From: Ectocarpus siliculosus | Lineage: Eukaryota > Sar > Phaeophyceae > Ectocarpales > Ectocarpaceae | Direction: 5' to 3' | DNA: 64,000 bases | Assembly: GCA_000310025.1 (NCBI GenBank) | Contig: FN648482.1 | Location: 127,565 to 191,564, forward strand | Shown here: one piece after another, positions 556 to 20,409 of the stretch | Numbering within the stretch: position 1 is the first letter of the stretch | Layout: every line of letters begins with the position of its first letter | Notes under the pieces: model-generated | What the model saw: only the letters and a program-made list of their open reading frames with translations | Told to the model about the DNA's origin: nothing | The model's database searches: none | Position numbers and translations under genes: made by a program

Positions 556-815
556 CAAATATTTTCCGTTTATTTTGTTTTCTTTCGAATTGCTTCATTA
601 TTTCTTCGGTTTCTAGGCTACGTGTTGGGGAGAGAGACGCACGAAACGCTCATCGTCTCTCCGGCCGCGTTAGCTGCAAAGGCCGGCGTCAACTCTTACA
701 AATCCATCTCTCTCCCCACAAATACTAGCCGGGGGACTACGACTGCAAACGCAGGAGTCCCAAAACTGACCAAGTCCTCAAATGGTACACACCATTCTAC
801 AACACCCACATCGAG
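556..815 (-). repeat. Left terminal repeat of YR element A
   Basis: Starts near TTTCGAATTGC and ends near the motif CAAATGGTACACACC. It is nearly identical to 10955-11215 and resembles 8935-9200, 9490-9720 and 42915-43180. In the solo copies this segment runs straight into right-repeat sequence. Here it runs into the recombinase gene instead. Confidence 0.75.
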
Positions 816-847
816 GTCAGTTTCTGGACGACCACCGAATAAGTCAA

Positions 848-2002
848 CTATCCGTTCCCCCAGACGGTCCCCTCCCCCGGCTGTCTCGATACGATCCTAC
901 TGCCGTCTGTAAGTTTCCGTGACACTCGCCGCGAATCCTCTACATTGTTTCGCGCGTACGGCTTGTATGCATCCGACCTCCACTTCCCTTCTCTCTGAAT
1001 CACTCGTTCTGCGATGTCTCCGCCCGATGCAAGAGCCGTCGCGCCTCCAATTCGCAACGAGTGCAACGCGTACTCCTGGGGGTTACGCCCCGACTTCGCT
1101 ACCACTTCTCTGACTGCACGGAGGGCAGCAGTATACCTCACTACTCTCACTGCTCTTCCACTACGGTACGAAGCCAACGGTGCGGAGTCAGGCAACGTCG
1201 CATGACACGATAACAGCTCCACCACAAGAGCCACCGCGCCGCCGCGTGCTCTCACACCTGACTGCGGTCCGGTGACTTCGTCTCGCGTACGAACCCGTAT
1301 GTTTCCTTTCTGCTCTTGATCGGCCTTGTGCCCTCTAAACCTCATTTCGACACGGTCTGCTCTACGATAGTGACTAAAGACTAATTGCGTCTCGCCAGCA
1401 AACAATGCTACGTCCGCCCTCGTAAGACAGTGTGCCTCATGCACCCTGCCCGCATCATTCGCGAACACCTCATCAGACCGTGTGATAAAGAGATAGGACA
1501 AGCACAGACACAGCCACATCACTCTGCCCCCTTCCCCCCAGTTCTGGCTTGCGCTTTCCCCGTCCAGCAGCATACGCCAAGACACAGGCAGGCGCACACG
1601 GCGTATCGTCCCCACAGCCACGTGGTTCCTCGCAATCCCCCTTAGCGCACATTTCAACATCGGAGACGACAAGTCTAGCTCGACAGAAGCTTCCAGCCTA
1701 TGAAAATGTTGTACAGCCGTGAGTTTTCCGGATATTGTACTCGCTAGGTTACCCTCAGACTCGAAACACCAGGCTACGAAGTCTATCAACTCCCACACAT
1801 GAAGGTCCCCGGCACGTTGCCCTAGGAACTTGGGCTTCTCCGTCAGCCTGCGAAACGTGCACCAAGAGTTGAAGCCTGACGTGTAAGTCATTCTAGACGA
1901 AGACGCAACTGAGTGCTCGACGAGCTGCATGCCAAGACGTCGGTAACAAAGTCCCGTCCTGCCTGTCCCGGGTCCTGAACCTGCTGATAGCCCTGGAGCC
2001 AA
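848..2002 (-). CDS. Tyrosine recombinase of a YR transposable element
   Basis: Intact 384-residue ORF. It would catalyse DNA strand exchange through a covalent 3'-phosphotyrosine intermediate and so integrate the element. The N-terminal part (about residues 30-130) has the SSSRMTYTSGFNSW-type core-binding segment seen in transposon YRs. The catalytic part carries Arg175 in ITRSDEV, the HSLR box (His314, Arg317), GKW at 339-341, and a tyrosine at 346 or 349 in SDAYKPYAR. The R-H-R-Y set is therefore complete. A degraded homologue lies at 11.26-12.66 kb, with further remnants at 9.7-10.6 and 25.25-26.2 kb. The start was taken at the first Met; the frame may be open further upstream. Ngaro, DIRS and Crypton recombinases all share this fold. 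The family is certain, the clade is not. Confidence 0.9.
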   Translation of the reverse strand: MAPGLSAGSGPGTGRTGLCYRRLGMQLVEHSVASSSRMTYTSGFNSWCTFRRLTEKPKFLGQRAGDLHVWELIDFVAWCFESEGNLASTISGKLTAVQHFHRLEASVELDLSSPMLKCALRGIARNHVAVGTIRRVRLPVSWRMLLDGESASQNWGEGGRVMWLCLCLSYLFITRSDEVFANDAGRVHEAHCLTRADVALFAGETQLVFSHYRRADRVEMRFRGHKADQEQKGNIRVRTRDEVTGPQSGVRARGGAVALVVELLSCHATLPDSAPLASYRSGRAVRVVRYTAALRAVREVVAKSGRNPQEYALHSLRIGGATALASGGDIAERVIQREGKWRSDAYKPYARNNVEDSRRVSRKLTDGSRIVSRQPGEGTVWGNG

Positions 2003-2073
2003 CCTCGTGTAGACCGGCGTGCTGCCGTTCGATTTAGCCGCAGGTGCGCTGCCATCCGAGGTAGGCCCCCCCG

Positions 2074-3040
2074 CTACGCGGGAGAGCCCGCACCCCTATT
2101 TGTCTTTCCCGTGGGTGAAGAAGCCAGCGGCCTTGGGTCTCGCGCCGCCCTCGCCAGCGGCGCGCGCCTCTCCTCCGCGCCCTCCCCCGTTGCCGTGGCC
2201 AACGCCGCGCGCGCCGGTTGCCGGAGTTTCGGACGCTCCGCGCCTAGCGTGGGAAGGGTTCTGGGCGTGGATGTGTGGGCAGTTACGATCATGGCAACCG
2301 GACGACGAGTTGAAGGCGAAGCAGTAACCACGAGCGTGTCGAGCGATGCCGCCACTTTCTCTGTCACCAGGACGCCTTTGCGAAGCAAGGATTGCCACTC
2401 CATCTGCGACAGTTTTGAAACTGCCGGAGGCCACCCCAGGATGAGCCACGCTTTTACCCGGCGGAGGTCCCCCCACATCCGCGCTCTATCCTTTGCCGTA
2501 GCCTTAGCCGCCTCGGCGCTGGGTGTAGCGGGGGCCCGAGAGGCCGATGGTGGGGCGGTTGTGCCCACCAGTTGCACCCCCCCCCGGAAGGCCAGGTCCT
2601 GCTGCTTGGGTGGCGATCAGGTCGTCGATCGTTGCTTGAAGCTGCTGGCGATCGCCGGCAGCCTCATCGCGCTTCCGCTGCAGCTCCTCCCTCAGGCCGT
2701 CCACCAGCCCGCGGAGAGAAGCGAGCTCAGTCTCATCAGCGGGTCGCCGCGGGTGCCTGTCCCTGGCGCTCGCGAGGAGGATACCGCTCGACGCCTCGCG
2801 GGAGTACGTGATCCGCTGCGCGTCGAGGGGCGAGCCGTCGAGCTCGCCACCGATCGCGCGGTAGACCTCCTCGTGCGTGGTGTCGAAGGTGTCGCCGCCC
2901 GACCTCGCCCTGCTTGCCCACCCGCTGCCCTGCCGCTCCGCGTGGAGGCCCGTGTCGGCATCTGGTCGCGGTTGGAGTCGTATAAGCAGCGGACCGGCGG
3001 CAGGCGGCGGGCGAGCGTCAGGGCGGCGTTGCGGGAACAC
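2074..3040 (-). pseudogene. Gag-like ORF of YR element A (frame-broken)
   Basis: Three overlapping minus-strand frames make up one damaged ORF upstream of the recombinase. The first (3040-2504) is proline- and arginine-rich and then has a probable coiled coil (LRGLVDGLREELQRKRDE). The second (2577 downward) carries a segment conserved in copy C (DLRRVKAWLILG ... RKGVLVTEKV). The third (2476-2096) contains a CX8CX4CX3H zinc-finger pattern (residues CFAFNSSSGCHDRNCPHIH), then a Gly-rich tail. Small CCCH or CCHC fingers of this style are found in gag-like proteins of YR retroelements. A run of nine C on the plus strand (about 2577-2585) sits near the first break. Function as a nucleic-acid-binding structural protein is inferred. 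Confidence 0.6.
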
Positions 3041-3373
3041 TTCTTTTCCTCTTCATCGTGGGCGTAGTCGATCGCGCGCCTGGATCTGCAGTTAGAATGG
3101 TCTACAAATCCTATCTTCGGGCGAAACTATCTGACGTGGGTTTTCGTCGGGCCCAGAACGACGCGTTGTTATATCGCGAGCTCGCGTTAGTTCGTTCTCG
3201 ACGCCTGTGGATTGAACGGAGTGATTATTGCTGCTGACGCTACGGTCACCGGACGTCGACCAATCCCGAATATTTCTCTCTTTGGAACACTAGCGATGGT
3301 TTCTCTTTTTTTTTTTTTATACATATATTTTCTTGGATTCGGTGAACCCCGGTTCGCCATCGGCACGGGTGCT

Positions 3374-5020
3374 TCCACTCATTGGCGCGTCCCGTGCTGA
3401 TAATTGTTTTTTTTTTTTTTCCGATGCGTTGGATACGGTGAACTCCACTTGCCAACAGCGCGGGTGCTTCCACTCATTGGCGCGTCCCTCGCTGAAACTG
3501 ACAGCACATATGCAGCACGGGTGCTTCCACTCATTGGCGCGACCCGTACTGATACTTGTACGCAGCGCGGGTGCTTCCACTCATTGGCGCGTCCCTTGCT
3601 GAAACTGACAACACATATGAGCACGGGTGCTTCCACTCATTGGCGCGTCCCGTACTGATACGTGAATGACTTCGTTTTCGATGCGTGGAGATCGGTTAAT
3701 TCTACTCGCCAACAGCACGGGTGCGTCCACTCATTGGCGCGTCCCGTACTGATACGTGTACAGCGTTTTTGTTCTTTCTTTTTGAGATCGGTTAACTCTA
3801 CTCGCCAACAGCACTCATTGGCGCGTCCCTTGCTGAAACTGACAACACATATGCAGCACGGGTGCTTCCACTCATTGGCGCGTCCCGTACTGATACGTGT
3901 ACGACTTCGTTTTCGATGCGTTGAATTCGGTTAACTCTACTCGCCAACAGCACGGGTGCGTCCACTCATTGGCGCGTCCCGTGCTGATACGTGTACGGCG
4001 TTTTGTTCTTTCTTTTTGAGATCGGTTAACTCTACTCGCCAACAGCACGAGTGCTTCCACTCGTTGGCGCGTCCCGTGCTGAGGCTGACAACACATATGC
4101 AGCACGGGTGCTTCCACTCATTGGCGCGTCCCGTACTGATGCATGATTTGTGGTATTTCCTACCGCTGCGTTGAATTCGGTTAACTCTACTCGCCAACAG
4201 CGCGGGTGCTTCCACTCATTGGCGCGTCCCGTGCTGATACATGTACGGCGTTTTGTTCTTTCTTTTTGAGATCGGTTAACTGTACTCACCAACAGCACGA
4301 GTGCTTCCACTCATTGGCGCGTCCCGTACTGATACGTGTACGACTTCGTTTTCGATGCGTGGAGATCGGTTAATTCTACTCGCCAACAGCACGGGTGCGT
4401 CCACTCATTGGCGCGTCCCGTACTGATACGTGTACGACTTCGTTTTCGATGCGTTGAATTCGGTTAACTCTACTCGCCAACAGCACGGGTGCGTCCACTC
4501 ATTGGCGCGTCCCTTGCTGAAACTGACAACACATATGCAGCACGGGTGCTTCCACTCATTGGCGCGTCCCGTACTGATACGTGTACGACTTCGTTTTCGA
4601 TGCGTGGAGATCGGTTAATTCTACTCGCCAACAGCACGGGTGCGTCCACTCATTGGCGCGTCCCGTACTGATACGTGTACGACTTCGTTTTCGATGCGTT
4701 GAATTCGGTTAACTCTACTCGCCAACAGCACGGGTGCGTCCACTCATTGGCGCGTCCCGTGCTGATACGTGTACGGCGTTTTGTTCTTTCTTTTTGAGAT
4801 CGGTTAACTCTACTCGCCAACAGCACGAGTGCTTCCACTCGTTGGCGCGTCCCGTGCTGAGGCTGACAACACATATGCAGCACGGGTGCTTCCACTCATT
4901 GGCGCGTCCCGTACTGATACATGTATGACTTCGTGTTTCGTTGCGTTGAGATCGGTTAACTTCCACTCGCCAACAGCACGGACGAGTGCTTCCACTATTG
5001 GCGCGTCCCGTGCTGGTGCG
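3374..5020. repeat. Hairpin-forming tandem repeat array, about 21 units
   Basis: Each unit contains a segment of about 40 bp with arms CAGCACGGG and CCCGTGCTG, a perfect 9-bp inverted repeat, around a 21-22 nt loop containing CACTCATTGGCGCGT. Units start near 3361, 3458, 3504, 3562, 3617, 3714, 3808 (truncated), 3855, 3950, 4047, 4103, 4198, 4295, 4389, 4483, 4540, 4634, 4728, 4825, 4880 and 4975. Spacing alternates between about 95 bp and about 56 bp. The longer spacers share GGTTAACTCTACTCGCCAA. Four more units lie at 18246-18660. The small ORFs across the array are shadows of the repeat. Confidence 0.9.
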
Positions 5021-5167
5021 TGTCCTTGTTTTTTTTTTTTTCATTGAGATCACTTCCGCATAGACAATCCTACGGCAGGTTGACGAGTTTCTGGCATGCA
5101 TCAATTGCTGTCCGGGCGTTTTTGGTCGCTTAATCGTCGATGGACGTGACGTATTCTTATAGAAGGT

Positions 5168-5290
5168 TTGTGTCACAGTGGCAACAAATTTGACGTGATG
5201 CCCCTCGAGACCGTGATGCACTCATATGGATCGCTACCTGACGTTCCTCGCGAGTTCGAACCTCGCGTGTCACTTTCACCTCCCCCCCCT
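5168..5290 (+). repeat. Possible tRNA-related fragment
   Basis: GAGTTCGAACCTCGC at about 5254-5268 resembles an internal pol III B box, and a weak A-box-like TGGCAACAAATTTG lies upstream. The expected acceptor pairing is absent. At best this is a SINE relic inside the leader of element A. Confidence 0.2.
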
Positions 5291-5419
5291 ATTTTTTTCT
5301 CATCTTCTTTTTCCTTATGCATACAGCACGTAGTTCGCTGTCTCGTTTTTTTTTCTCGTCTTCTTTGTTTTTCAGTCTTTTTCTTTGAGTCTTTCTCTCG
5401 CATGCATGTGTTTTTGCTT

Positions 5420-6337
5420 TTATCCGTTCCCGTGAATGCTGTTGAATGCACTTTCCGATTACGTATGCGGCCGCTTTGTATGCCATGGGACTTGTCGATA
5501 CCATCAGTGGGGACTTGTCGATACCATCCGTGGAGACGATTGCTTACGTGAGTGGGCATATTATCGTCGATTCCTTCAGCTATATGCCCCTCTGTGCGCG
5601 GCACAGACAAGATTGTACCGGCAAGTAGTCCCTAGTAAGCCGGGGGAAACAGAAAACAAGGCACCTGCCTCATGTGCATACTCGTGACAGCATCATGCCC
5701 TACTGCCGCGGGTCGATTGGTTATGTCCGATGCCGCAGGGTTCCTCCACCCCGTGCAGTACAATGGCTGCTATCAACCGCGACAAGTCAGCGTGCGACCA
5801 TACAACAGGCCCCGCTCTTTCTTTTTGCCGTTGAATTTTTTTTTCTTCAGCGAGAGTACGTCTCGGTTGGGACGAACCGCATTTTTTTTCTTCAGCGAGA
5901 GTACGTCTCGGTTGGGATGAACCGCATCCCATGTTTGGGAAGGGATCTATCTGAGCGGCGCGGCGAGCGAGACTGCGGTGGCTTGCCGCCGCTTATCTAT
6001 TTTTTTTTCTTCAGCGAGAGTACGTCTCGGTTGGGACGAACCGCATTTTTTTTCTTCAGCGAGAGTACGTCTCGGTTGGGATGAACCGCATCCCATGTTT
6101 GGGAAGGGACCTATCTGAGCGGCGCGGCGAGCGAGACTGCGGTGGCTTGCCGCCGCTTATCTTACTGCACCCTCCCCCCTCGTGCTAAATGCACGCAGCG
6201 GTGAGGTCACAAGAGTAGCGGGACGCGAATAGGAACACGGCCGACACGATGGATGTTGGACACGAGTACACACCTTTATATGGAGAGTCGCGTGCTGGTC
6301 GCTTCCCCAATGCTTGCGCCGTGTCCCGTCCCGCCCT
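5420..6337 (-). repeat. Conserved leader segment of YR element A
   Basis: Matches 18730-19400 over its whole length with indels. Copy-specific changes are a 22-bp tandem duplication near 5498-5541 (GGACTTGTCGATACCATC repeated) and a tandem duplication of about 164 bp (5835-5999 and 6000-6162, each with two TTCAGCGAGAGTACGTCTCG motifs). No convincing protein is encoded. On the minus strand it lies between the right repeat and the hairpin array, where a 5' untranslated leader would be. Confidence 0.7.
5835..6162. repeat. 164-bp tandem duplication
   Basis: Two adjacent near-identical units (5835-5999, 6000-6162), each ending with GCGGTGGCTTGCCGCCGCTTATC. The homologous position in the 18-kb copy (about 19100-19212) has one unit, so the duplication happened after the two copies separated. 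Confidence 0.85.
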
Positions 6338-6598
6338 TTTCTAAACTGCCGCCGCTACTGCGTTAGGCGGCTGCTGCTGTCCTTCCGTTGCTTCACGCGC
6401 TCTGTAGCTGTCACACGTTACCCGACTTTGCTACAGCCCCTGCGTGGACTCGATCACGGAATGACACCCCCAACTATAGACTAATAATTCCAAACACCGT
6501 GACCCTGGGTTTCCGGTAGAAAATGAAGCCAAATTCTAATTCGACTGTTACAAAATAAACACCAGTTTATTCTATCTGCTTCGACGAACAAACCTTCC
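6337..6598 (-). repeat. Right terminal repeat of YR element A
   Basis: A 262-bp segment from TTTTCTAAACTGCCGCC to GAACAAACCTTCC. Near-identical copies lie at 10692-10955 and 19403-19669. It contains AAAATAAACACCAG, an A-rich motif that could serve in polyadenylation on the opposite reading. Confidence 0.85.
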
Positions 6599-7222
6599 TT
6601 TTTTTCCTGAATATAGGTGTTAGGTATGTGTGATGACGTCACTGGTTTTGTAGAGAGATGCGGCAGAGATGGCGCGGATAACCCGGGTGCCTTAGTTGTG
6701 TACCTGCATCGTGGAAGACCCCTTCAATGTGGAACGATTCCTAGTCAGTGTCGATGTTTACACTGCTGTGTCTACCACGGATGATCTGGACAGATTCGGG
6801 CGATTGTCAATTGCAATGATGGCTTTGGTTGATTGTTCTTCTTCATTGTATGTCCACGGACCCATTCCTTCAGACAGCAGCTGCATGCCACGAGCTTGTT
6901 GTGTACCATACACCATGGTGTTATTTTTGTACAGACAGCACTTCAGACAGCAGTACGCTGTAGTCGACAAACATTCATTTTGGTGAAGTGCGGGACAAGG
7001 GGGGTGATGCCGCTGTTGTAGTCGAATTGTAGTGTGTGGGCGTGTAGTTCAGTTGTGAGCACGCAAACGTGCTGCAGGGATTGTAGGTGTACCTCCTCGG
7101 GCTTGTATACCCTTTTCTTGCTAATAGTGTGCGTGTTCTTTAGATCTTCTGATGGCTCTAGCATTTTTGTGACCACCGACCGAGTCTTCGCTAGATTTTG
7201 GGATTAGCAACTGACACTTGTT
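6599..7222. other. Intergenic, nothing assigned
   Basis: Only short overlapping ORFs on both strands with no recognisable domain. No repeat shared with the rest of the window was seen. Confidence 0.5.
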
Positions 7223-7233
7223 TAATGTGAAGA

Positions 7234-7268
<35 letters not shown>
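7223..7268 (+). repeat. (AAC)n tract with LINE-like tail context
   Basis: About 12 AAC units preceded by TTTAATGTGAAGAA. The minus-strand 3' end of LINE copy 2 (54021-54060) reads TTTTAATGTGAAGA and then AAC units. This could therefore be the very end of a severely 5'-truncated LINE on the plus strand, or a coincidental microsatellite. Confidence 0.5.
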
Positions 7269-8020
7269 CCTCATTACGAGTCTATCTCTCGTGAAGATTT
7301 TAATTTTGATGAATAGACAAACTTGCCAGAGGGTCACCTCATTACAAGTTTATCCCTCATCAACCCCACAGCATTATCATGCGATATATTTTAGTACACT
7401 AGCGGTCATCATCATAGCCCAGTACCCACAATGTTTTTCTAGACTACAGTAGTATGGACCACATCTATCACTACTCCGTCTGAAGACTCCGTGTTTTTTA
7501 ACACGCGTTGTATGATAATCAGGCCGAGTTGATGATGTTGTACCAGGTAGGTTAACTCCAATACATGTGTCTCCATGAGCCACTCTTGTCTATGGCCGCC
7601 AAAAGCACATCTTTAGCACAGATGGACTTGTGGCGCATAGAGGGGGGGGTGATGTGGAGGACACCTGTCAGGAGTATAACCAACCATGTCTGCACATCCA
7701 AAGTGTAGGAAGATATGGCTCCCTCGGGGTATCTTGTCACAAGGAGAGTGACAGGAAAGGCACGGTCGGAGATGGATATCTTCCGAAGTCCCTGGCCACT
7801 TGCCGAAAGTGGAAGCGGAGAGTCTTCGACTCTCCTCTCCCTCTGCCCGCTATGGCCACTCTCTCTTTCTACCCTCTTCTCCTCGTTTACACATCACGAG
7901 AGGAAATAGCCTTCCCGTGGCAGTGGGATAATACTGCCACGGCACCGGCCTCTGTCTCCGAGAGTAGCCAGTGTCCTCAAGATGATTTAAATATTATCTG
8001 GTTATATACAATAGTCGCTT
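7269..8020. other. Intergenic, nothing assigned
   Basis: A loose direct repeat CACCTCATTACRAGT occurs at about 7267 and 7335. The 162-residue ORF at 7630-8118 has no recognisable domain and overlaps other open frames. Confidence 0.45.
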
Positions 8021-8024
8021 TGCT

Positions 8025-8250
8025 CTCGCACGGAAGCAGCCACGCTGTGGCACGTTCTCGTGCCAAATGCTTCTTCTACAACACGGATGGAGCCGCACTT
8101 TGGCGCTTCGCGTGTTGACACGCGGTGTCACGATGAAACAACAGGCGTGTGAAATGTTCGATTAGCCTACTTTGGATTTCGTTCGGTGAATGCCGTTCGC
8201 CTACAGCACGGATGTAGTCACACTATGGCGCTTAGCGTGTTGAGTGCGTC
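8025..8250. repeat. Diverged relatives of the hairpin repeat
   Basis: Three units near 8030, 8084 and 8204 read like CACGGATGNAGYCRCACTNTGGCGCTTNGCGTG and are followed by GTTGA. This is the same plan as the 3.4-5.0 kb array (CACGGG ... TTGGCGCGTCCCGTGCTGA), with different bases on both sides of the stem. Confidence 0.4.
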
Positions 8251-8354
8251 GCCTACAACATGGTTTTGTATGAATTATTGCGCACAGTGTACTTGTGAGC
8301 GACTATTGAACAGTCACGGAAAGAATCCCCAGATGTTGCGTCGATATATGAGAC

Positions 8355-8440
8355 CGTTGCGAGTCGCACGTGTTGGACGTTAAGGCGTCGGGTCCGATCG
8401 CCGCTTGATGAACGCTCTGTATCTAAGGTTCGAGTCTCGC
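8355..8440 (+). repeat. tRNA-like fragment
   Basis: GTTAAGGCGTCGG resembles the D-arm of Ser/Leu-type tRNAs and AAGGTTCGAGTCTCGCC resembles a B box and T arm about 45 nt later. No acceptor stem closes, so it is not a tRNA gene. A SINE or tRNA pseudogene relic is possible. Confidence 0.3.
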
Positions 8441-8859
8441 CTCTCATTTCCCATTCATTTGTTTTCGCCTTTTCATGAAATTTCTCTTTGTTGCGTTTTC
8501 GTCAACCCTGTACAGTGGCGGGGGGGCTCTATAGTGCCAGTTGAATAGTGCCGGTGCCCGGTATAGTACCGGTGTTGCCGGCTCGCACACACTTAAACAC
8601 CAAGTTGTTCTGTGCTCTAAATTGTGCGGATGCCCGGTACTGTCTTGGGATACACCCCGGCATCACTACAGAGGGTCCCCCACTTTATGCTACTTTGCCG
8701 ACTTCGGTTATATTCACTGGCTCTTGTCAGTGCCGTCATACGGGATCACGTTATCGACTGCGCAAGACTGAATCGTCTAGCGTTGCGCATCACAGACCGA
8801 ACATCGATGGGCAGTTCGCGTTGGCAAAGCCTGCGCCAGATGCACACGCTTAAATTTAA

Positions 8860-8940
8860 TCCGTTTGGGATTGGTTTCATCTACGGAAAAATGGAGCCTG
8901 TACGGAATCTTGACCGGAGATTTTTTACCAAGGCCGATTT
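8860..8940. repeat. Short dispersed homology to 58605-58690
   Basis: AATCCGTTTGGGATTGGTTT and TTGACCGGAGATTTTTTACC both recur near 58604-58680, with a similar central spacer. It abuts the start of the solo YR repeat at 8935. Confidence 0.5.
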
Positions 8941-9485
8941 ATTGTTTTTCTTTCGAATTGCCATTTTTTGCATTAATGTTTTCTCTTCACACGCGGGGAA
9001 GAGAGAGAAACCACACTGACATAACACATTTCCTGCAGACTCCCTCTGCGCCTGTCCTACCGTGTCTCTATCCCTCAGTACTACTGTCTCTCTCTCTTAC
9101 CTAAGAAAACAGCCCGGGGTTTCTCTTTCCACCGGTGTGGGGAACTCTTTCTACTGCACGGAACCTCTCAGACGACCAAGTCCCCAAATGGTACTCTACC
9201 ATGTACTCTACCCCATTTACTGTAGCCCTTGCATTCCTTCCGTTCCCGCACCTTCGAAAGACAAGTGTGGGTGGGCGGGAAAGAACGCAATTTCTTGGCC
9301 TCCTAACCTGGCCAATCCTTTGCATCCCTCTCTCCTTGCACATGAACTCTCCGAGAGAGTGACCACTCCAAAATACTCTTCTCCATTCTGATACCCCGAA
9401 ATACAGGAACAAAACCGCCTCTGGAAGAATCCGACGGTTTCAATAAACAGTAGTCTGCCTCGGCTATATCTGCCTCACCAAACTT
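8935..9485 (-). repeat. Joined left and right YR repeats (solo form), copy 1
   Basis: About 550 bp in which left-repeat sequence (TTTCGAATTGCC ... CCCCAAATGGTAC) continues directly into right-repeat-like sequence (CACCTTCGAAAG ... CTCACCAAACTTGCTATTTA). A second full copy lies at 42915-43506. On its right it abuts the left repeat of element B. In a split-direct-repeat model this is the downstream part of element B. Confidence 0.7.
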
Positions 9486-9729
9486 GCTATTTAATGTTTG
9501 TCTTTCGAATTGCCATTTTGGCATTAACGTTTTCTCTTCACACGCGGGGAAGAGAGAGAAACCGCATTGACAGAACACGTTTCTTGCAGACTCCCTCTGC
9601 ACCTGTCCTACCGTGTCTCTGTCCCTCAGTACTACTGTCTCTCTCTCTCTCTTTCTACCGTACGGAACCTCTCAGACGACCAAGTCCCCAAATGGTACTC
9701 TACCATTTACTCTCCCCAATTCGAGGTCG

Positions 9730-10606
9730 TCATGATGGGTTCACTACGGTGGAACCTCGTCTCTTCTTCCTGCTAACCCACACCGTGTTTCTCCCCCAGC
9801 TGTCTCGTTGCTCCCATTTCCTTGTCGCCTGAAATGCTCGACACCCGTCGCGATTCCTCCAAATTGATTTCTGTGTATGACTTACGCATCGTACTTCCAC
9901 CTCCCTGCCCTCTGGATTACTCGTTCCCAAACCTCCCCAGATTGGAAGGAATTGCAAATCAAAGTCTTTTGGTTCACCCTCCGACTTCTGGACTACCTCG
10001 CTAAATGCCCACAGATCCTGGCCATACCTTAGCGCTTTGACTTCACGACCGCTACGGTACGAGGATAGTGGCGCGTCGTCAGGCAGCGTCGCATGACAAG
10101 ACACCAATTCCACTATCAGAGCCACGGCACCGCCGTTTGCTCTGTACCCCGACTGCGCGCCACTATCCTCATCCCGTGTGCTACTCGAAACACCAAGCAG
10201 CAAGGTCTATCATAGCCCACACCATCTCTTCGGGCGAAGCATCTCTTCGCACGAACATATTATTCAGACCCATCAGCCTACGAAAAATACACAAAACCGG
10301 AAACCTGACGGGCTGACTAGTAGAGATTGGCCCCAAAATTGCGGCCGAGCCCTTACCCCTATGGGCTATCAGGTACTCCGCCACGACCGTTAGCACCGCC
10401 CGCGCCATCTCCGCCACTGCCTCGGCCTCCTCCGCCGCCGCCACCGCTGCCGCCCCCGTGACCACCGCGGCGTCGTTCGCCGCCCACAGTTCCACCTCAC
10501 TCTCCGCCTCCCGTGCCCATGTCCTGATCGCGCCCACCGCCAGCGCCTCTGCTCCCAGCGCTCGGGTGGCGGTTGGGGTTCTTGGCATGGTCCTCAAATG
10601 GTACAC
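9730..10606 (-). pseudogene. Tyrosine recombinase remnant, element B
   Basis: Translated pieces match element A: GAVALVELLSCHATLPD-like and FRRL ... EEMVWAMIDLAAWCFE (compare FRRLTEKPKF ... ELIDFVAWCFE). The order is compressed. The central part, including the Arg-I region, is missing, and the HSLR box is altered to QFLP. A GCC-rich stretch coding for an Ala-rich run is fused in. The protein cannot be functional. Confidence 0.75.
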
Positions 10607-10691
10607 ACCATTCTACAACACCCGACTAGATACCGAATACTCCCGAACTTATGCCCCCACCTTCGAAAGAAAAAGGGATGGGAGGGCGGGA

Positions 10692-10955
10692 TTTTCTAAA
10701 CTGCCGCCCCTACTGCGTTAGGCGGCTGCTGCTGTCCTTCCGTTGCTTCACGCGCTCTGTAGCTCTCACACGTTACCCGACTTTGCTACAGCCCCTGCGT
10801 GGACTCGATCACGGAATGACATCCCCAGCTATAGAACAATAATAAATCCAAACACCGTGACCCTGGGTTTCCGATAGAAAATGAAGCCAAATTGATATTC
10901 GACTGTTACAAAATAAACACCAGTATATTCTATCTGCTCTTCGAACAAACCTTCC
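10692..10955 (-). repeat. Right terminal repeat, element B
   Basis: Nearly identical to 6337-6598 and 19403-19669. It ends in GAACAAACCTTCC and is followed within about 10 bp by the left repeat of element C, a head-to-tail junction. Confidence 0.85.
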
Positions 10956-11259
10956 GTATATTTTGTTTTCTGTCGAATTGCTTCATTATTTCTTCGGTTT
11001 CTAGGCTACGTGCTGGGGAGAGAGACGCACGAAACGCTCATCGTCTCTCCGGCCGCGTTAGCTGCGAAGGCCGGCGTCAACTGTTACAAATCCATCTCTC
11101 TCCCCATAAATACTAGCCGGGGGACTACGACTGCAACCGCAGGAGTCCCAAAACTGACCAAGTCCTCAAATGGTACACACCATTCTACAACACCCACATC
11201 GAGGTCAGTTTCTGGACGACTACCGAATAAGTCAACTATGCGTTCCCCATACGGTCCCC

Positions 11260-12660
11260 TCCCCCGGCTGTCTCGATACTATCCTGCTGCCGTCTGTAAG
11301 TTCCGTGACACTCGCCGCGAATCCTCTACATTGTTTCGCGCATACGGCTTGTAGGCATTCGACCTCCACTTCCTTCTCTCTGAATCACTCGTTCTGCGAT
11401 GTCTCCGTCCGATGCAAGAGCCGTCGCGCCTCCAATTCGCAACGAGTGCAATCCGGTCGCCCCGGTGGTCTAGTTGGTAGCCTCGTAACCTTCTAGAGGT
11501 CAGGTCAGGGGTTCGAATCCCGGCGTAGGCGAGCTTTTCTTGCAAAGTGAGATTTTCTCTCGCTTCCGCTCCTGGCCAAGTGGATAGCGCTAGTTCGTGT
11601 GTACACAGAGGGAAGAGAGTGCTGAACTCTTCTCGCATTAAAAATTGAAGGCGAAGTACCGCAGGAGGGGAGGGTAGAGAGAGGCTTTTCTGTGTGACCA
11701 CGGGTTGGAATAAACGGCACTAGTGCTGTGAGCGCTGATTTGAAGTGAAGAACAAAAAAAAAAAAAAAAACGCGTACTCCTGGGGGTTACGCCCCGACTT
11801 CGCTACCACTTTTCTTACTGCACGGAGGGCAGCACTATACTTCACTACTCTCAATGCTCTTCCACTACGGTACGGAGCCAACGGAGCGGAGTCAGGCAAC
11901 GTCGCATGACACGACAATAGCTCCACCACAAGAGCCACCGCGCCGCCGCGTGCTCTCACACCTGACTGCGGTCCGGTGACTTCGTCTCGCGTACGAACCC
12001 GTATGTTGCCTTTCTGCTCTTGATCGGCCTTGTGCCCTCTAAACCTCATTTCGACACGGTCTGCTCTACGACAGTGACTAAAAGTCTAGTTGCGTCCCGT
12101 TGGCAAACAAAGATTTGTCCGCCCTCGTAAGACGGTGTGCCTCATGCACCCTGCCCGCGTCATTCGCGAACACCTCATCAGACCGTGTGATGAAGAGATA
12201 GGGCAGGCACAGACACAGCCACATCACTCTGCCCCCTTCCCCCAGTTCTGCCTTGCGCTTTCCCCGTCCAGCGGCATACGCCATAACACAGGCAGGCGCA
12301 CACGGCGTACCGTCCCCATAGCCACGTGGTTCCTCGCCATCCCCCTTAGCGCACATTTCAACATCGGAGACGACAAGTCTAGCTCGACCGAAGCTTCCAG
12401 CCTACAAGTATGAAAATGTTGCACAGCCGTGAGTTTCCGGATATTGTACTCGCTAGGTTACCCTCAGACTCGAAACACCAGGCTACGAAGTCTATCAACT
12501 CCCACACATGAAGGTCCCTGGCACGTTGCCCTAGAAACATGGGCTTCTCCGTCAGCCTCCGAAACGTGCACCAAGAGTTGAAGCCTGACGTGCAAGGCCT
12601 TCTAGACAACTGAGTGCTCGACGAGCTGGATGCCAAGACGTCGGTAACAGAGTCCCGTCC
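11260..12660 (-). pseudogene. Tyrosine recombinase pseudogene, element C
   Basis: Homologous along its length to the intact recombinase at 848-2002. It is broken by a 319-bp SINE (11452-11770) between the QEYA codons and the HSLR catalytic box, and by frameshifts near 12060, 12340 and 12410. Outside the insertion it still shows TRSDEVFAND (Arg I) and LHSLRIGGATALAS. One frame reads into the SINE poly(A) as a run of Phe. Confidence 0.9.
11452..11770 (+). mobile_element. tRNA-derived SINE with two tRNA-like heads
   Basis: The ends are exact: the uninterrupted sequence in element A (GAGTGCAA|CGCGTACTCC) is split here. The 5' head has an A box (TGGTCTAGTTGG) and a B box (GGTTCGAATCC). It folds loosely as a tRNA with a 5-bp acceptor remnant (TCGCC/GGCGA), and the anticodon position reads CTA. 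A second tRNA-like D-arm, TGGCCAAGTGGATAGCGC, starts at about 11573, so the element looks dimeric. It ends in 17 A residues. No target duplication is visible beyond an AA hidden in the tail. Confidence 0.9.
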
Positions 12661-12796
12661 TGCCTATCCCAGGTACTGAACCTGCTGATTGCCCTGGGCC
12701 AACCTCGTGTAGACCGGCGTGCTGCCGTTCGATTTGGCCGCATGTGCGCTGCCAACCGAGGTAGGGCCCCCCCGCCACGCGGGAGAGCCCGCACTT

Positions 12797-13646
12797 CTAT
12801 TTGTCTTTCCCGTGTGTGAAGAAATCAGCGGCTGTGGGCCTCGCGCCGCCCTCGCCAGCGGCGCGCGCCTCTCCTCCGCACCCTCCCCCGTTGCCGTGGC
12901 CAAAGCTGCGACCACGGTCTTCGACCCGGAAGTTTGAGAGCGTGTCGAGCGATGCCTCCACTTTCTCTGTCACCAGAACGCCTTTGCGAGGCAAGGATTG
13001 CCACTTCGGCTCCGACAGTTTTGCAACTGCCAGAGGCCGTCCGAGGATGAGCCACGCTTTTACCCGGCGGAGGTCCCCCTGCATCCGCGCCCGATCCTTT
13101 GCAGCAGCCTTAGCAGCCTCGGCGCTGGGTACAGCGGGGGCCCGAGATGCCGGTGGTGGGGCGGTTGTGCCCACCAGTTGCACCTCCCCCTAAAGGCCAG
13201 GTCCTGCTGCTTGGGTGGCGATCAGGTCGTCGATCGATGCTTGAAGCTACTGGTGATCGCCGGCAGCCTCGTCGCGCTCCCGCTGCAGCTCCTCCCTCAG
13301 GCCGTCCACCAGCCCACGGAGAGGAGCGAGCTCAGTCTCGTCAGCGGGGGGGTCGCCGCGTGTGCCTGTCCCTGTCCCTCGCGACGAGGATACCTCTCGA
13401 CGCCTCGCGGGAGTACGTGACCCGCTCCGCGTCGAGGGGCGAGCCGTCGAGCTCGCCACCGATCGCTCGGTAGACCTCGTGCGTGGTGTCGAGGGTGTCG
13501 CCGCCCGACCTCGCCCTGCTTGCCCACCCGCGGCCCTGCCGCTCCGCGTGGAGGCCCGTGTCGGCATCTGGTCGCGGTTGGAGTCGTATAAGCAGCGAAC
13601 CGGCGGCAGGCGGCGGGCGAACGTCAGGGCGGCGTTGCGGGAACAC
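12797..13646 (-). pseudogene. Gag-like ORF of YR element C (zinc finger deleted)
   Basis: Matches the gag-like region of element A: the MFPQRRPD start at 13646, coiled coil ELAPLRGLVDGLREELQRE, and DLRRVKAWLILG ... RKGVLVTEKV. The frames are broken by indels near 13340 and 13190. About 110 bp present in element A at 2225-2335, which encode the CCCH-type finger, are absent around 12900-12950. Confidence 0.65.
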
Positions 13647-13890
13647 TTGTTTTCCTCTTCATCGTGAGCGTGGTCGATCGCGCGCCCGGATCTGCAGTTA
13701 GAATGCTCTACAAGTTCCTATCTTCGGCGGAAATATCTGACGAGGTTCTGCGTCGGGCCCAGAACGACGCGTTGTTATATCGCGAGCTTGCATTGGTTCG
13801 TTCTCGACGCCTGTAGATTGAGTGGAGTGATTGTTGCTGCTTACGCTACGGTCAATGGGGGTCCCGTATCTCGACAATCCCGAATATTCC

Positions 13891-15615
13891 TCGACACGTG
13901 TTTTGGAGTTGTTGAGTAGAGGCGGGTATTAAAGGCCACCCGAGTGTTAACGACCACCTGGCTTAAAAATTCATATCTTGCCAACAATATCGGGGAATGC
14001 CTTTTTTTTTTCTTGTTGTCATGGACCATGCCGATAGTTTAAGCACAAGTTTGCTCCAGCTGGATAAAAACTGAGCCCTCTACAGCGTTCGGCGCCAAGG
14101 TGGCGTAAGATATCCCAGCCTTTCTCGATTTATTTTTTTCCAGCCGCTAAGGGCGTATGTTAACGAAGTGCAGAAATCAAAATCGAAAAAAAAATCGAAT
14201 CAAAATCGAGATCTGATTGGTCGAATATCTGCTACCTCCTGACGACGCCCTTTGATTTTTAGAAGTTCCTCTGTCTGGGAAGAAGTCCCAGGGGACTTTT
14301 TCTATCAAAATCAATATGAAAGAGGCAAGGAGTTCAAGGAGTTTGCCGCGAGGCCGCTGCAAAGCAAGTGTACGACGCGACCTGCTGCACACTGCTCACA
14401 GAGGGGCTACCGGCACCCTACCACCGAGGCCATGGCCATTATTTGTAGCCAGAAGGCTCTGCTCGCCGGCAAGCTATAAACGGGCCGGCTCGTTGGGTGC
14501 TCGAGGATAAATGCCGATCGTGACAAGCGGTGAACGGACTGACGATCAGAACAGGGCTGCGCGGCTTTCCGGGCTGTTCCGTGCGGGAGAGGGCAGTTGC
14601 AACTTTTTTTTTCCACACTCACGATACCCCATGGCATCTAACCTTGTACGAGACAGATGGTGGGTAAAGCTACCTCCCGTCGCGTGGCATTGTTAATGCT
14701 GTTGCTTCCTCCTTCCTAAGTTTTTGTCCCCGGGTAAGCATGTTTATTTTTTTATATTCCAAACGATAGCTAGTACCATCACCATTGCTTGTGCCAAAGG
14801 AGAAGTTCTGGGAAGCAGTAGAACGAGCGCAATCGCTAGTATTCAAGGTAGCCGTTAGTACCCTCCGGGCCGTGTTTTCCCTCAATATTCCATCTTCAAC
14901 TTCGGCAAACGGCTACCGCTGTACGTTGTCACTAATAACGATTTTCCTTCTTTTTATTTTTAGTTACGGGATAGATGGTAATGTTAGCTATCGTTCGATA
15001 TTTAAATATCATCGTAACTCGTTATATTGCCACAGAACGAGCTCTTGGCACCAGGGGTAGCTTAAGTGGCCTTTAATCCTTACGTGAGTACAGGCCGATT
15101 CAGCTCCGTCCTCAGCGCCGATCACTTTGCGTCCCGAAAGATCGCCGTTGTGCCTCGGCTAAGAGCAAACAGCTACATAGAGACCAGCAGGGACACACAG
15201 GCAGCCCACCCCAAAAGCGCGCTTATCAGCAATGCGCACAGGACTCACATAGCACAGCACTATTCACCCATGCCTCATCTCTCTGACGTGGGGCAGATAT
15301 CCTTGCCAGATCCAATCTACTGCCTACCGATACTGCTGTAGTCTAAGATTCAAACGCACAGTACCATCGGAGGGTACATACACCCCCTGAACATTTGCTC
15401 AACCCGGTGCCGCATCCGCGGGGGAGAGCAGAGAAAGCGCACACCGGAGTCGATGCTAACGTACTGCCTCGGTGCTTGATGTTGTTGTGGTTGGGGTGCG
15501 TGTGGTTCCCAGTATTGGGAGTGAAGGGTGGTTCGTCTGCTGTGTGCGAAATTTCGCTCAAAGGCAAGGGTTTTCGGGACTACAGCTCCGATCACAGCTC
15601 CGATCACACCTCTCT
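13891..15615. other. Largely unassigned intergenic sequence
   Basis: AT-rich homopolymers at about 14000 and 14185. A possible internal exon at about 14770-14850 reads LVPKEKFWEAVERAQSLVFK and ends at a donor-like AAG|GTAGCC, but it has no recognised homology. No repeat shared with the rest of the window was found. Confidence 0.35.
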
Positions 15616-15618
15616 ATT

Positions 15619-16131
15619 TCGTCTGCCTCCCTACAAAAAAATTGAATCTCTTGGTTTCAGAGTAATTATTTATTTATTTTTTCCTGTGTGGAGATAACAT
15701 GGCTAAACACGGGGGTGGTATTGTTCTTTCCGAGTGCCTTGTCTGCTGGTGTTCATTTTCACAATATTTTTGCATTTTTTCCGCTTTGGGATGGGTGACC
15801 CGAGGTTCGCATGGCCTTGATTGAAACCGCATAGGCGAACTTGCTCCGATAACTATGTTGTCTATGTGTATTTGGTCCTGTGGCTCCAACAGGTAGGTTC
15901 GTGGACCCATCTCCGCAGTTTGTAGAGGTGCTGCAACATGCGCGATGACCGAATAAACTGAAATCGACGGGAGGGACGGAGTGACCGAAAATAGTATAGG
16001 AGGAGAAATGGAAAGAAATTAAATTAATTAAATAAGAAAATAGTATAGGATTCGTCTGCCTCCCTACAAAACAATTGCTTCTCTTGGTTTCAGAGTAATT
16101 ATTTATTTATTTTTTCCTGTGTGGAGATAAG
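15619..16131. repeat. Direct repeat pair of about 85 bp
   Basis: 15619-15704 and 16051-16131 share TTCGTCTGCCTCCCTACAAA and TTATTTTTTCCTGTGTGGAG with few changes. AATAGTATAGGA occurs at about 15990 and again just before the second copy. Confidence 0.8.
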
Positions 16132-16276
16132 ATACCATGTGTCCTGCCGCCCGACCTCCCGCGTGTCGGCCTACTCGGTCCGTCGGCATGCATGAAGGAG
16201 GTTACCAATCTGTTTGAAAGCGCTGGCGACGTCCTGCAGTCTCACGACTGCCATCCTGGACCGTTCAGGCCTGAAT

Positions 16277-16497
16277 TACCGTATATGACACAAGATAACA
16301 CACACCCTGGGCCGATTTTCAAAGCTCGATTTCTCAACAGCAGGAAGAGTCACAGCGCCGAAAACGGCGGCGTTGGAACCGTCTCGTCGAGAGGTTTTCG
16401 AAAATGTATTGTTTCGTTTATGCATCCTCTTCGTCGTGGAGTAATCGAGCTTTGAAAATCGGTCCAGGGGGTGTGTTATCTTGTGTCATATACGGTA
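16277..16497. mobile_element. MITE with 57-bp terminal inverted repeats
   Basis: Left TIR 16277-16333 and right TIR 16441-16497 are reverse complements with three mismatches over 57 bp. The outer part is TACCGTATATGACACAAG. A TA dinucleotide lies at each edge (16277-16278, 16496-16497), consistent with a TA target duplication of the Tc1/mariner type. The internal part is about 107 bp with no ORF. The DNA could fold into a near-perfect long hairpin. No second copy was seen in this window. Confidence 0.9.
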
Positions 16498-17090
16498 TGT
16501 ATCCCGCTTCCGGCTACCTTCGAATTTAGTTGCGAGAGCTGCCCCCCTCCACCGTCCACGGGCTGTCATAAGTGTGACTACCGTCTCGTCACTATTCCTT
16601 CAGTATGTCTTTATAGGCAATCGACAGTTCTGTTGTAGCATGCGCGGTCGAGTGATCGTGCCTGCCTCGCGTGCTGCTGCTGCGCACAACCGTGTAACGG
16701 TTCCCACCGAATAAATGACGTCAGTTTTGCGGCGAGATTTTTCACGTCAGCCGAACTGGCTTTCTTTCTGTTCCGAAACATGGGAATTCTGGTCAGCTCT
16801 GTAGATGCCAACTTCCCAAAAGCGCTCGCGATCATGGCGGCCGATGCGCTCATGGACGCGGGCTTTCCCCTTGCGGCCTCTAGCAGCCCCAGAGCCCTGG
16901 GGCGTGCGCATGGAGAATGTTCTTCGCGGAATCTGTTATTCTCGTTTCTGCCTTTGTGGCTCACGGGTAGTCGGGACGGGCAGCCACTTAATTTTGGGAA
17001 CAGCAGCGCGAGCTACGTTTGTCCCTGCCTTCCCCCTCCCCCCTCCTCCTCACAATCCTCTACTCCCCACCACTCGCTCTTCTTAAGCGA

Positions 17091-17191
17091 ATGTCTTCAT
17101 CCTACGAAGTATCTTTCAACGTTCTCAACAACACTGGGCTGCTGTACATCGAGAACGGCTTCACCTACCGGGAGCACATCAAGAAACAGCA
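17091..17191 (+). CDS. Possible first exon of an unknown gene
   Basis: An ATG at 17091 in the context TTAAGCGAATGTC follows a C/T-rich stretch (17025-17080) of the kind found upstream of eukaryotic genes. The reading MSSSYEVSFNVLNNTGLLY and onwards has a natural-looking composition, and a donor-like CAGTACGTACC lies at about 17190. I do not recognise the protein and found no downstream exon with confidence. It could be chance. Confidence 0.25.
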
Positions 17192-17199
17192 GTACGTAC

Positions 17200-18235
17200 C
17201 GCGGTTTCTTCCTGGCTTTGGCCAGTGTACCTCTGATCCATGGTGGTACCATCCTGCCCTATTTTAGGTCCCCCGTCGCTATTTTGTGTCCCGTGCATAT
17301 TAAGAATTAGGGGTTAACATCCGTTTATCGCGGTTGTGTTCCGTGTTTCCTTCCGGATGGATATTCCCCATCCGCGATGATGATTTGCCGCGTTCCGTGA
17401 CCAGGTCACCCATTTGGATTTTTCGTGCCAACTTCCTCCCTCGATCTGGGTTTTGGGATCCTTGCGTGACGGAATTGACGGAATGGCATCGACGTCGATA
17501 ACTCGCGACACGGAACCTGCGTCCCCAAAATCTCTCGCTCTTCAATTCTTCTCTTGGGCGCCCCGCAATATATCCCTGTGTAATTAATTATTTAATTTCT
17601 GTCCCCTTTCTCTTCCTACCCTTCCTTTTTTCTTTGTAGTACAGAGGAGTAAAATTTATCACCATTTTTATGCATTTTGTGCGATAGAGGGTGATGCTCT
17701 CGATTCTCTGGTGAGCGGGCCGGGTTTTTTTTTTCCGTCGATCTGGCGCTTCTGTGAGGCGGTCTCCCGTCCGCGTCTTCGCATCTAGCGCCGCTAGCAT
17801 ATTATATATATGCGCTTGCCCTATGCTCTGTCCAAGGATGAGGTGGAAAAGATGTGCCAACAGGTATTGCTTGCACAAGTACATCCTGTGTGCGGACGGT
17901 TGCTGTCGGAGACAGGCATGCACACCTGCTCAGGAACTACTGCTGCTGTACAGTCTAATTCTTTCCGCAAAACTGCTGCTGCTGTACAGCAGTAGTACTA
18001 CTACTGTAGTCCTGTTCGTCACCCTTTTACATATACCGCGTCCCCATCCCTGTGAGCCCCACACATGGACCCACTGCTGCACCATCCTAGCCGCCGTGAT
18101 TTATGGGTGTACACGCATGCTTGGAAGATCTTTGACGGCAGAGAGCCAGTGGTGGGGAAAATGAAAACAAAAATCAAATTAACCCAGTCACGCAAGGGTT
18201 AGTACCCGCCTCTACTCTTTATCCAATACGGTAAT
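17200..18235. other. Unassigned; short CTG/CAG palindromes
   Basis: CTGCTGTACAGCAG at about 17977-17990 is a perfect 14-bp palindrome, and GCTGCTGTACAG also occurs near 17942. Otherwise there are only unconvincing short ORFs. Confidence 0.4.
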
Positions 18236-18245
18236 GACGCCTACC

Positions 18246-18660
18246 GCACGCGTGCTTCACTCATTGGCGCGTCCCGTGCTGACGCCCAGGCGACGTCACA
18301 ATATGGAGAGTGCGCAGATGACATACTTTGGACGTGCTTTTTTTTTTTCTCTTTAGAGCACTAACGATGTTTTTTTTTTTTTTTTTAACCTTGGATTCGG
18401 GAAACCCCAGTTCGCAGCGACACGGGTGCTTCCGCTCATTGGCGCGTCCCGTGCTGATACGTGTACGGCTTTTTTTTTTTTTTTTTTTTTTTTTCGGTGA
18501 GATCGGCTAACTCTACTCGCCAACAGCGCGGGTACTTCTACTCGTTGGCGCGTCCCGTGCTGAGGCTGACAGCACACATGCAACACAATGCGGTTAACTC
18601 TACTCGCCAACAGCGCAGGTGCTTCCACTCGTTGGCGCGTCCTGTGCTGATACGTGTTGT
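18246..18660. repeat. Hairpin repeat array, 4 units
   Basis: Units near 18246, 18421, 18522 and 18611. They keep the TTGGCGCGTCC core and the CCCGTGCTGA arm (CCTGTGCTGA in the last). The left arm varies (GCACGCG, ACACGGG, GCGCGGG, GCGCAGG), and most changes keep pairing or allow G-T wobble. Confidence 0.8.
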
Positions 18661-19402
18661 ACGACTTTCGTTTTTTTTTTTTTTTTGCGTTGAGATCGGT
18701 TAACTTCCACTCGCCAACAACACGGTTTCTGCTTCTGTTTATCCGTTCCCGTGAATGCTGTTGTATGCACTTTCCAATTACGCATGCGGCCGCTTTGTAT
18801 ACCGTGGGACTTGTCAATGCCATCAGTGGAGACGATAGCTTACGTGAGCATATTATCGTCGATGCATTCGGCTACATTTACCCGTCTGTGCGCGGCACAG
18901 ACCAGGTACCGGCAAGTAGTCCCGACTGAGCCGCGGGAAACAGAGAGCAAGGCACCGGCACCATGTGCATACTCTTGACAGCACACGCCACGTGCCCCAC
19001 TGCCGCGGGTCGATCGGTTATGTCCGATGCCGCAAGGTTTCCCCACCCCGTGCAGTACGATGGCTGCTATCGTGGCACGTACAGCAGCGCGTTTTCTCCG
19101 TTGAAATATTTTTCGGCGATAGTACATCTCGGTTGGGATGAACCACATCCCATGTGTGGGAGGGTACCTATCTGAACGGCGTGGCGAGAGAGACTGCGGT
19201 ACGCCGCTTATCTTACTGCACCCTCCCCCCCCCGTGCTAATGCACGCAGCGGTGAGGTCACGAGAGTAGCGGGACGCGGGAAGGAACACGGCAGACACGA
19301 TGGATGTTGGACACAGACCCGTTTACACACCTTATTATATGGAGGGTCCCGAGCGCGCGCTGGTCGCTTCCCCAATGCTTGCGCCGCGTCCTGTCCCGTC
19401 CA

Positions 19403-19669
19403 TTTTCTAAACTGCCGCCGCTGCTGCGTTAGGCGGCTGCTACTGTCCTTCCGTTGCTTCACGCGCTCTTTAGCTCTCACACGTTACCCGACTTTGCTAC
19501 AGCCCCTGCGTGGACTCGATCACGGAATGACATCCCCAGCTATAGACTTCAATAATAAATCCACACACCGTGACCCTGGGTTTCCGATAGAAAATGAAGC
19601 CCAAATTGATATTCGACTGTGACAAAATAAACACCAGTTTATTCTATCTGCTCTTCGAACAAACCTTCC
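19403..19669 (-). repeat. Right terminal repeat, third copy
   Basis: Nearly identical to 6337-6598 and 10692-10955, with small indels near 19545. Confidence 0.85.
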
Positions 19670-20409
19670 TATATCCCGAAACGAACGGAGGGCCTCGAAG
19701 AACATCCAAAGGCGAGCAGGGTAAGAGCACTACACACCAAACTAACCGACGACGACGGTGAGAGACACGTCGGCAAGTTAACTCTCCCAATCAAGGAAGG
19801 AATCGGGGAAACATTGTGCAAATCGTTTCGCATCGCCAGTCCTTGTCAATGGCTGTTTTGGCGGGTACCCATCCCCGCAGTGTGCCTTGCCTTCTTCCCT
19901 CCCTCCTTGTCTAAACCGTTTCTCCTCCTCCTTTGGATCGATTGGATACATTCGGTTCCTCTGCCTCTGCGCCCCCGTCGCCTTCTCACGCACGCCCTTC
20001 GTTCGGGCGACGGTTGATCAGATGAGCGCTGCGACACAATAGCGCCGGGGAGGTTACCCACCTGCCGCTTGTTGTGCCGAATATAGAGCTCGAAGCTCTG
20101 GCGATGGACGCCGTCGAGGTGATTGCGACCAGCGGTTAGACTTCGCGTAGCGCAGTGGACGGGTACCAGATGGTGTGCACCAGGCGACCAGGTGGTTAAA
20201 ACTAGCATGGCTTGGAACAGCCTCGAGACCCAAGCCTGACTCAAGCTAATTAGAGTCGGCTCTCGAGTCGCCTGAGTTCGTACACCGAGTGAGTGCTGAC
20301 CGTTCCGCCGGGAGCAATCGTTCGTCACTGCTCACTTGCCTGAAATGCTGAGGTCTATCCCGTCAGATAGGTGGCACTCCTTCTCTCCTCCAGAATGCGA
20401 TGGTTGGGT
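19670..20409. other. Intergenic, nothing assigned
   Basis: The longest ORF (19846-20328, minus, 160 residues) has no recognisable motif and is overlapped on the other strand. Confidence 0.45.

Follow-up and report, generated by a model that had tools for sequence, protein, structure and literature searches.

Reverse-transcriptase-deleted, Ngaro-like tyrosine recombinase elements in the genome of the brown alga Ectocarpus siliculosus

The window analysed here, a 64,000-nucleotide stretch of contig FN648482.1 of Ectocarpus siliculosus, carries several elements encoding a tyrosine recombinase (YR), among them element A (564-6605, minus strand), a type I copy of a Ngaro-like element from which most of the reverse transcriptase (RT) has been deleted. 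Element A has the form A1-internal-B1, and its parts, all on the minus strand, follow the order A1, leader, hairpin array, gag remnant, YR and B1. The A1 repeat (6337-6605) starts with the 5' edge of the element at AGGAAGG, and the B1 repeat lies at 576-847. The original prediction, made from the sequence alone, had named these the right repeat and the left repeat (about 564-847), and its minus-strand plan of right repeat, leader with hairpins, gag-like open reading frame, YR and left repeat holds for this element. The leader array (3270-5051) is a tandem series of hairpin units of about 94 nt, which is also present in RT-bearing relatives. The folding of its stretch 3700-4680 beats that of each of 20 shuffled sequences (z -6.05), whereas the signals of four array stretches folded singly were weaker (z -0.42 to -2.75). 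The gag remnant (2032-3126) has suffered two internal deletions and frame changes; it matches residues 1-266, 439-477 and 539-564 of the 564-residue gag of a relative, and the second of these parts corresponds to a CCCH-type finger (2326-2210). Unlike in nearly all sister copies, no A2 repeat follows B1 in element A. Splitting it into separate elements, 556-3270 and 3270-6598, was rejected because four complete copies elsewhere in the genome (L001-L004) have the same arrangement throughout, from A1 to B2.

The YR frame of element A (848-2002) stays open back to position 2095, resulting in an open frame of 415 amino acids (848-2095, stop at 848-850) in which the start of the RT frame is fused to the YR. 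A tblastn search with the 768-residue RT frame of a relative detected only residues 1-39 (2095-1979) and 723-768 (1983-1846) in element A and not the RT core, so that residues 40-722 are missing and the claim that no RT is visible in this element stands. The two remnants meet at 1979-1984 in the 6-nt microhomology GCAGGT, and this word is present at both sides of the deleted segment in the RT-bearing relative. The junction was compared in 67 copies, comprising 57 fetched for this comparison, eight full loci and the two copies of the window. It was found in 60 of them, 59 with the exact word and one (L053) with one base missing beside it; six copies retain the end of the RT before the YR, and one (L066) is too truncated to tell. 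In addition, the gag of type I copies has lost about 510 and 80 bp, while the gag deletion of a second RT-less group, type II, is a different one. In the type II copy L008, gag remnant, RT-frame start and YR form a single open frame of 533 amino acids (L008 6100-7701), and the other YR matches of 87-91% identity lie in open frames of 369-596 amino acids.

Relatives with an RT are encoded in the same genome. A search of the genome with the YR of element A yielded at least 107 matches (107 scored of 733 candidates); here and below, the numbers of copies are minimum values into which duplicated or allelic contigs may have entered. One related element, L007, whose YR is 63% identical, has frames for gag, RT/RNase H (RT/RH) and YR, the assembly being filled with N over part of the RT region. 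Its leader contains a long tandem array of its own (L007 381-2664) without a BLAST match to the window array, and leader arrays may be a shared trait of these elements. Searches with the RT of L007 (73 of 456 candidates scored) revealed RT frames directly 5' of at least six YRs that are 94-98% identical to the window YR, and the RT of L010 as query (58 of 627 candidates scored) identified at least eight loci at 92% identity or more. When all 77 and 61 RT matches were used, an RT was located directly upstream in at least ten of the 107 YR matches listed, six belonging to close relatives and four to a diverged group.

In the RT-bearing L010 (contig C74), gag (564 amino acids), RT/RH (768 amino acids) and YR (392 amino acids) are all open. 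L010, L011 and L012 share the order A1-leader-array-gag-RT/RH-YR-B1-A2, which is followed by spacer and B2 in L010 and L012; L011 is cut within the spacer, and the RT frame of L011 and the gag frame of L012 are not open throughout. Outside the array, the parts that L010 shares with the RT-less L001 are 87-99% identical (A repeat 97.8%, leader 87-94%, gag pieces 96.8-97.1%, YR 98.1%, B1 97.8%). The RT frame of the relatives carries the sequence YVDD, which we take to be the RT motif, and conserved D/E/D residues presumably of RNase H type. Pfam RVT_1 was matched by all four RT members tested, in each case below the cut-off (best E 0.014; L010 0.02). In a supporting role only, a weak AlphaFold model of the RT (mean pLDDT 53.2) was placed by Foldseek with the RTs of CaMV and retroviruses (best E 2.7e-9). 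Only a short stretch follows the RNase H motifs in this frame, and Pfam, which barely detects even the RT here, matched no methyltransferase domain in its 768 residues.

The YR of the window has the catalytic-type residues R175, K226, H314, R317, W341 and Y349 (numbering of 848-2002). The pattern R..K..HxxR..W is invariant in seven of seven YR members, and the tyrosine is present in six, the seventh being cut at this point. PHROG integrase profiles matched four of eight members (best E 1.4e-4) and Pfam Phage_integrase one of eight (E 0.0046). The window YR itself has no match in Pfam, NCBIfam or PHROG, and its family is not among the 23 matches of a genome search with PF00589. Sequence searches of the PDB with RT and YR gave no meaningful match; a weak YR model (mean pLDDT 43.9) led Foldseek to Cre (E 4.5e-4) and is likewise used as support only.

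Complete RT-less copies (L001-L004) have the order A1-leader-array-gag remnant-YR-B1-A2-spacer-B2 with a spacer of 69 nt. The sister copies have split repeats of the form A1...B1-A2-spacer-B2, and the likeness to the split direct repeats of Ngaro noted in the original prediction was right for the family. A2 is missing after B1 in three of 49 type I copies, and B1/A2 is damaged in one more. In all eight copies examined the B1/A2 junction reads ACAAAATAAA/AGGAAGG, and the same words make up the outer edges. Inverted ends and an internal complementary region as in DIRS1 were not encountered: the terminal repeats are direct, and the sole inverted pair of at least 40 nt within 1-22000 is 16277-16497. 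The last six bases of the 5' flank are A or T only in five of seven complete copies (L001 includes a single C, and the flank of L012 closes with GC). None of the seven shows a clear target-site duplication, as no duplication of 8 nt or more was present at their edges. The RT-bearing L011 (G000 C27:2934300-2943800) stops about 14 nt inside the A2-B2 spacer and, unlike the complete copies, lies between the two units of a perfect direct repeat of 33 bp; it looks like an incomplete cDNA that was inserted by a route other than the YR.

A1 and A2 are 98.7-100% identical within each of eight copies, and B1 and B2 98.3-100% within each of seven. In L008, which has no RT, the values are 99.6% for A1/A2 and 100% for B1/B2, while its A repeat is only 92.5-94.8% identical to those of four other compared copies. 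Because identity within the copy exceeds that of the A repeat to other copies, the repeats of L008 look as if they had been renewed after the loss of the RT. This pattern fits a renewal of the repeats in each cycle, and gene conversion could yield the same. The repeats of type I are all alike and are uninformative in this respect.

Taken together, the elements derive, with high confidence, from a Ngaro-like YR retrotransposon by internal deletion and are non-autonomous. Of the two explanations offered in the original prediction, non-autonomous derivatives are strongly supported by the RT-bearing gag-RT/RH-YR elements that share A and B repeats, leader and array; a distinct replication route is not supported, since the full-length L010-L012 have an RT between gag and YR. 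A possible exception is thereby removed, as no RT-free split-repeat YR retroelement is needed for these loci. An RT-independent YR element, for example one forming DNA circles that are excised and reintegrated as in Cryptons, would agree with a YR frame that, as far as compared, is uninterrupted in 39 of 49 type I copies and with RT-less copies outnumbering RT-bearing ones by 60 to 6 among the 67 compared. It is nevertheless highly improbable: RT-bearing copies with the same ends exist, the repeats look renewed in the RT-less L008, and no constraint is apparent in the variants that spread in the YR of type I.

This constraint was estimated from the ratio of nonsynonymous to synonymous substitution rates (dN/dS) of the YR. 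The ratio is 0.21 between L056 and L010, both RT-bearing, and 0.15-0.61 in other RT-bearing pairs, with one pair lacking any nonsynonymous change. RT-bearing and type I copies differ with a ratio of 0.13-0.49 (L010 and the window copy, 0.13). Among 27 differing type I sequences, in contrast, the corresponding ratio for segregating sites (pN/pS) is 1.00. The variants shared by at least two of the 43 type I YRs without indels (of 49) comprise eleven nonsynonymous changes, one stop codon, which is common to three copies, and three synonymous changes; under a dN/dS of 0.2, the probability of at least 12 of 15 being nonsynonymous or stop is 0.00075. Type II copies give 0.61-0.87 against L056 and 0.24-0.34 against L010, and of the changes common to all ten type II rows, 18 are nonsynonymous and 15 synonymous. 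From these alignments, the YR of type I, the main RT-less group, shows no sign of selection, and the constraint looks relaxed in RT-less copies in general, most clearly in type I, with few data.

Because the YR of the main RT-less group bears no sign of selection, RT-less copies are most likely mobilised in trans by relatives that carry the RT. RT and gag would be supplied by RT-bearing copies, and the YR in trans or in cis. The RNA of RT-less copies would be packaged and reverse-transcribed by the proteins of RT-bearing copies, the repeats would serve to rebuild the element and to form a circle with the junction ACAAAATAAA/AGGAAGG, and a YR, probably stemming mainly from RT-bearing copies, would recombine this circle into an A-rich site. 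A semi-autonomous element, for which RT and gag come in trans while its own YR works in cis and is retained for this purpose, with the RT-frame start possibly keeping it translated, is rather unlikely. The in-frame 415-residue fusion of type I would suit it, as would the 533-residue frame of L008, whose YR keeps the catalytic-type residues, and the ratio of 0.24-0.34 between L010 and type II; the 12:3 excess among shared type I variants, the stop codon common to three copies and the ratio of type II to its nearest RT-bearing relative L056 speak against it.

Several points weigh against the reading as mobilised derivatives. Mobilisation in trans is inferred and not observed, and the open YR frame in most type I copies leaves room for a role in cis. 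The selection test comprises 15 shared variants, some of which may have been copied by duplication. The normal constraint on the YR is not sharply known, since RT-bearing pairs span ratios from 0 to 0.61, and the value of 0.13 for L010 and L007 derives from saturated synonymous sites (dS 2.35). L010 is separated from type I by a dS of about 0.05 and is hence a relative, not the literal ancestor. With respect to repeat renewal, the B repeat of L008 discriminates less, being 95.8-99.2% identical to other copies, and A1 and A2 of the type II copy in the window are only 95.9% identical. Finally, both edges of L010 carry the 7-nt word AAATAAA, either a terminal word belonging to the element or a crossover core.

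With regard to the number of RT losses, type I falls with RT-bearing copies of the L010 kind in the YR tree (bootstrap 72), and type II joins the RT-bearing L056 (86; 100 in a reduced set). In the gag tree, which does not include L056, type I is likewise separated from type II and joins the L010-like copies (100). A single RT-less clade is rejected in the reduced set for the YR (approximately unbiased (AU) test, p 4.7e-5) and for left flank and YR combined (p 3.8e-4). The bases next to the junction are split by type as well: CAATC occurs in ten of eleven type II rows and in the RT-bearing L087 and L056 (L060 has TAATC), and CTATC in type I, L010, L011, L012, L089 and L090, with CGATC in the RT-bearing L088. 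Together with the differing gag deletions, these sequence comparisons suggest two separate RT losses at the same spot. One ancient deletion from which both types descend, the conflict between trees then being due to template switching or gene conversion involving RT-bearing copies, is the less probable alternative, though a substantial one: the junction word is identical in both types, and for the left flank by itself (228 columns) one clade of RT-less copies is not rejected (AU p 0.069). A reading that goes further is quite doubtful as a whole: two or more losses of the RT with the YR kept, all at this 6-nt microhomology and all resulting in a frame from RT start to YR, would have been followed by RT-less lineages out-amplifying the RT-bearing ones, as a recurrent, almost programmed split into RT donor and YR-bearing parasite, in which the parasite might use its YR on the circles that it forms itself. 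A recurrent RT loss with the YR kept would be a modest curiosity.

Further YR elements are located in the same window. An RT-deleted type II element (10590-19670, minus strand) carries an extra leader segment and comprises what had been described as copy C and a half copy, here recognised as one interrupted element. Its A1 lies at 19402-19670, its gag remnant at 12740-13854 with a deletion unlike those of type I, and its interrupted YR at 11236-12685, all on the minus strand; the 3' end consists of B1 (10964-11235), A2 (10692-10963), spacer (10624-10691) and the start of B2 (10590-10623), where the element ends about 33 nt into the repeat. With an A1-A2 identity of 95.9%, this copy is older. 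Two insertions, without assigned strand, interrupt it, one within the YR (11452-11768) and one of about 2 kb (15590-17632) that has no match in L008 and holds a 62-nt inverted repeat (16277-16338/16436-16497, 94% complementary). The extra leader of type II, about 2.56 kb without a match in L010, covers 2872-5433 in L008 and 13855-15589 plus part of 17633-18343 in the window.

A second YR-element family is represented as well. Its 3' end (8937-10440, minus strand) contains a YR fragment, B1 (about 9487-9721), A2 (about 9218-9488) and B2 (8937-9217), and its repeats had no self-BLAST match to those of element A (at least 60 nt, E at most 1e-6), a laxer search giving matches of 30-37 nt only. Elements A, B and C as one family were therefore rejected, as 8935-10955 mixes two families: of the proposed common plan, the union of copy C with the half copy survives, whereas element B joins parts of both. 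The reading of 8935-10955 as one split-repeat element fails, 10692-10963 being the A2 of type II and 8937-10440 the 3' end of the other family. Of two proposed fused solo units, 42915-43506 does look like one and is probably a solo A-B pair from the second family (42921-43506, minus strand), while 8935-9485 is an A2-B2 end. A further diverged YR (25047-26146, minus strand) has 46% amino acid identity to the YR of an RT-bearing relative; beside it, an overlapping RT tail (residues 738-766) is the only RT part found.

The assignment as Ngaro-like is based on layout and domains. Cryptons are DNA transposons that are not known to have gag or split direct repeats; they resemble the window copies in having a YR without an RT, but the latter derive from an RT-bearing element. 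PAT-like elements share split direct repeats and, in some, a zinc-finger gag. They would differ in the methyltransferase domain that is reported for PAT in the parts of the literature consulted (PMC4157794), none being seen in the RT-bearing relative. SIRE, according to the sections consulted, is the A2-B2 part of VIPER with a short internal segment of its own (PMC6681497) and is, like the window elements, non-autonomous and derived from a YR retrotransposon with split direct repeats. SIRE as described there consists of the end region only, whereas the window elements keep the YR and a long leader. An amplified Ngaro family with deleted RT and retained YR was not met in a partial literature search covering listings and text passages, and the consulted parts of PMC3783388, PMC9210276 and PMC3266345 contain no matching RT-less family.

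Ngaro elements are described, in the parts of the reports consulted, as A1-[ORFs]-B1A2B2 without a methyltransferase (PMC8547959, PMC4157794). Isolated A-B repeats of Cafeteria burkhardae Ngaros have been likened to solo long terminal repeats (PMC8547959), and for Ectocarpus 15 Ngaro families making up 2.45% of the genome are given (PMC12477816), both again from partial texts. The RT-bearing relative agrees with this description, as far as it was consulted, in the split direct repeats A1-[gag, RT/RH, YR]-B1A2B2; no methyltransferase was seen in its 768-residue frame. The natural pair of RT-bearing and RT-less elements with the same ends allows asking which parts of a Ngaro are needed in cis. 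Within this framework, the window copies differ from Ngaro in being without RT/RH and part of gag, and the family differs in the 69-nt spacer between A2 and B2 of complete copies and in the long hairpin array of the leader.

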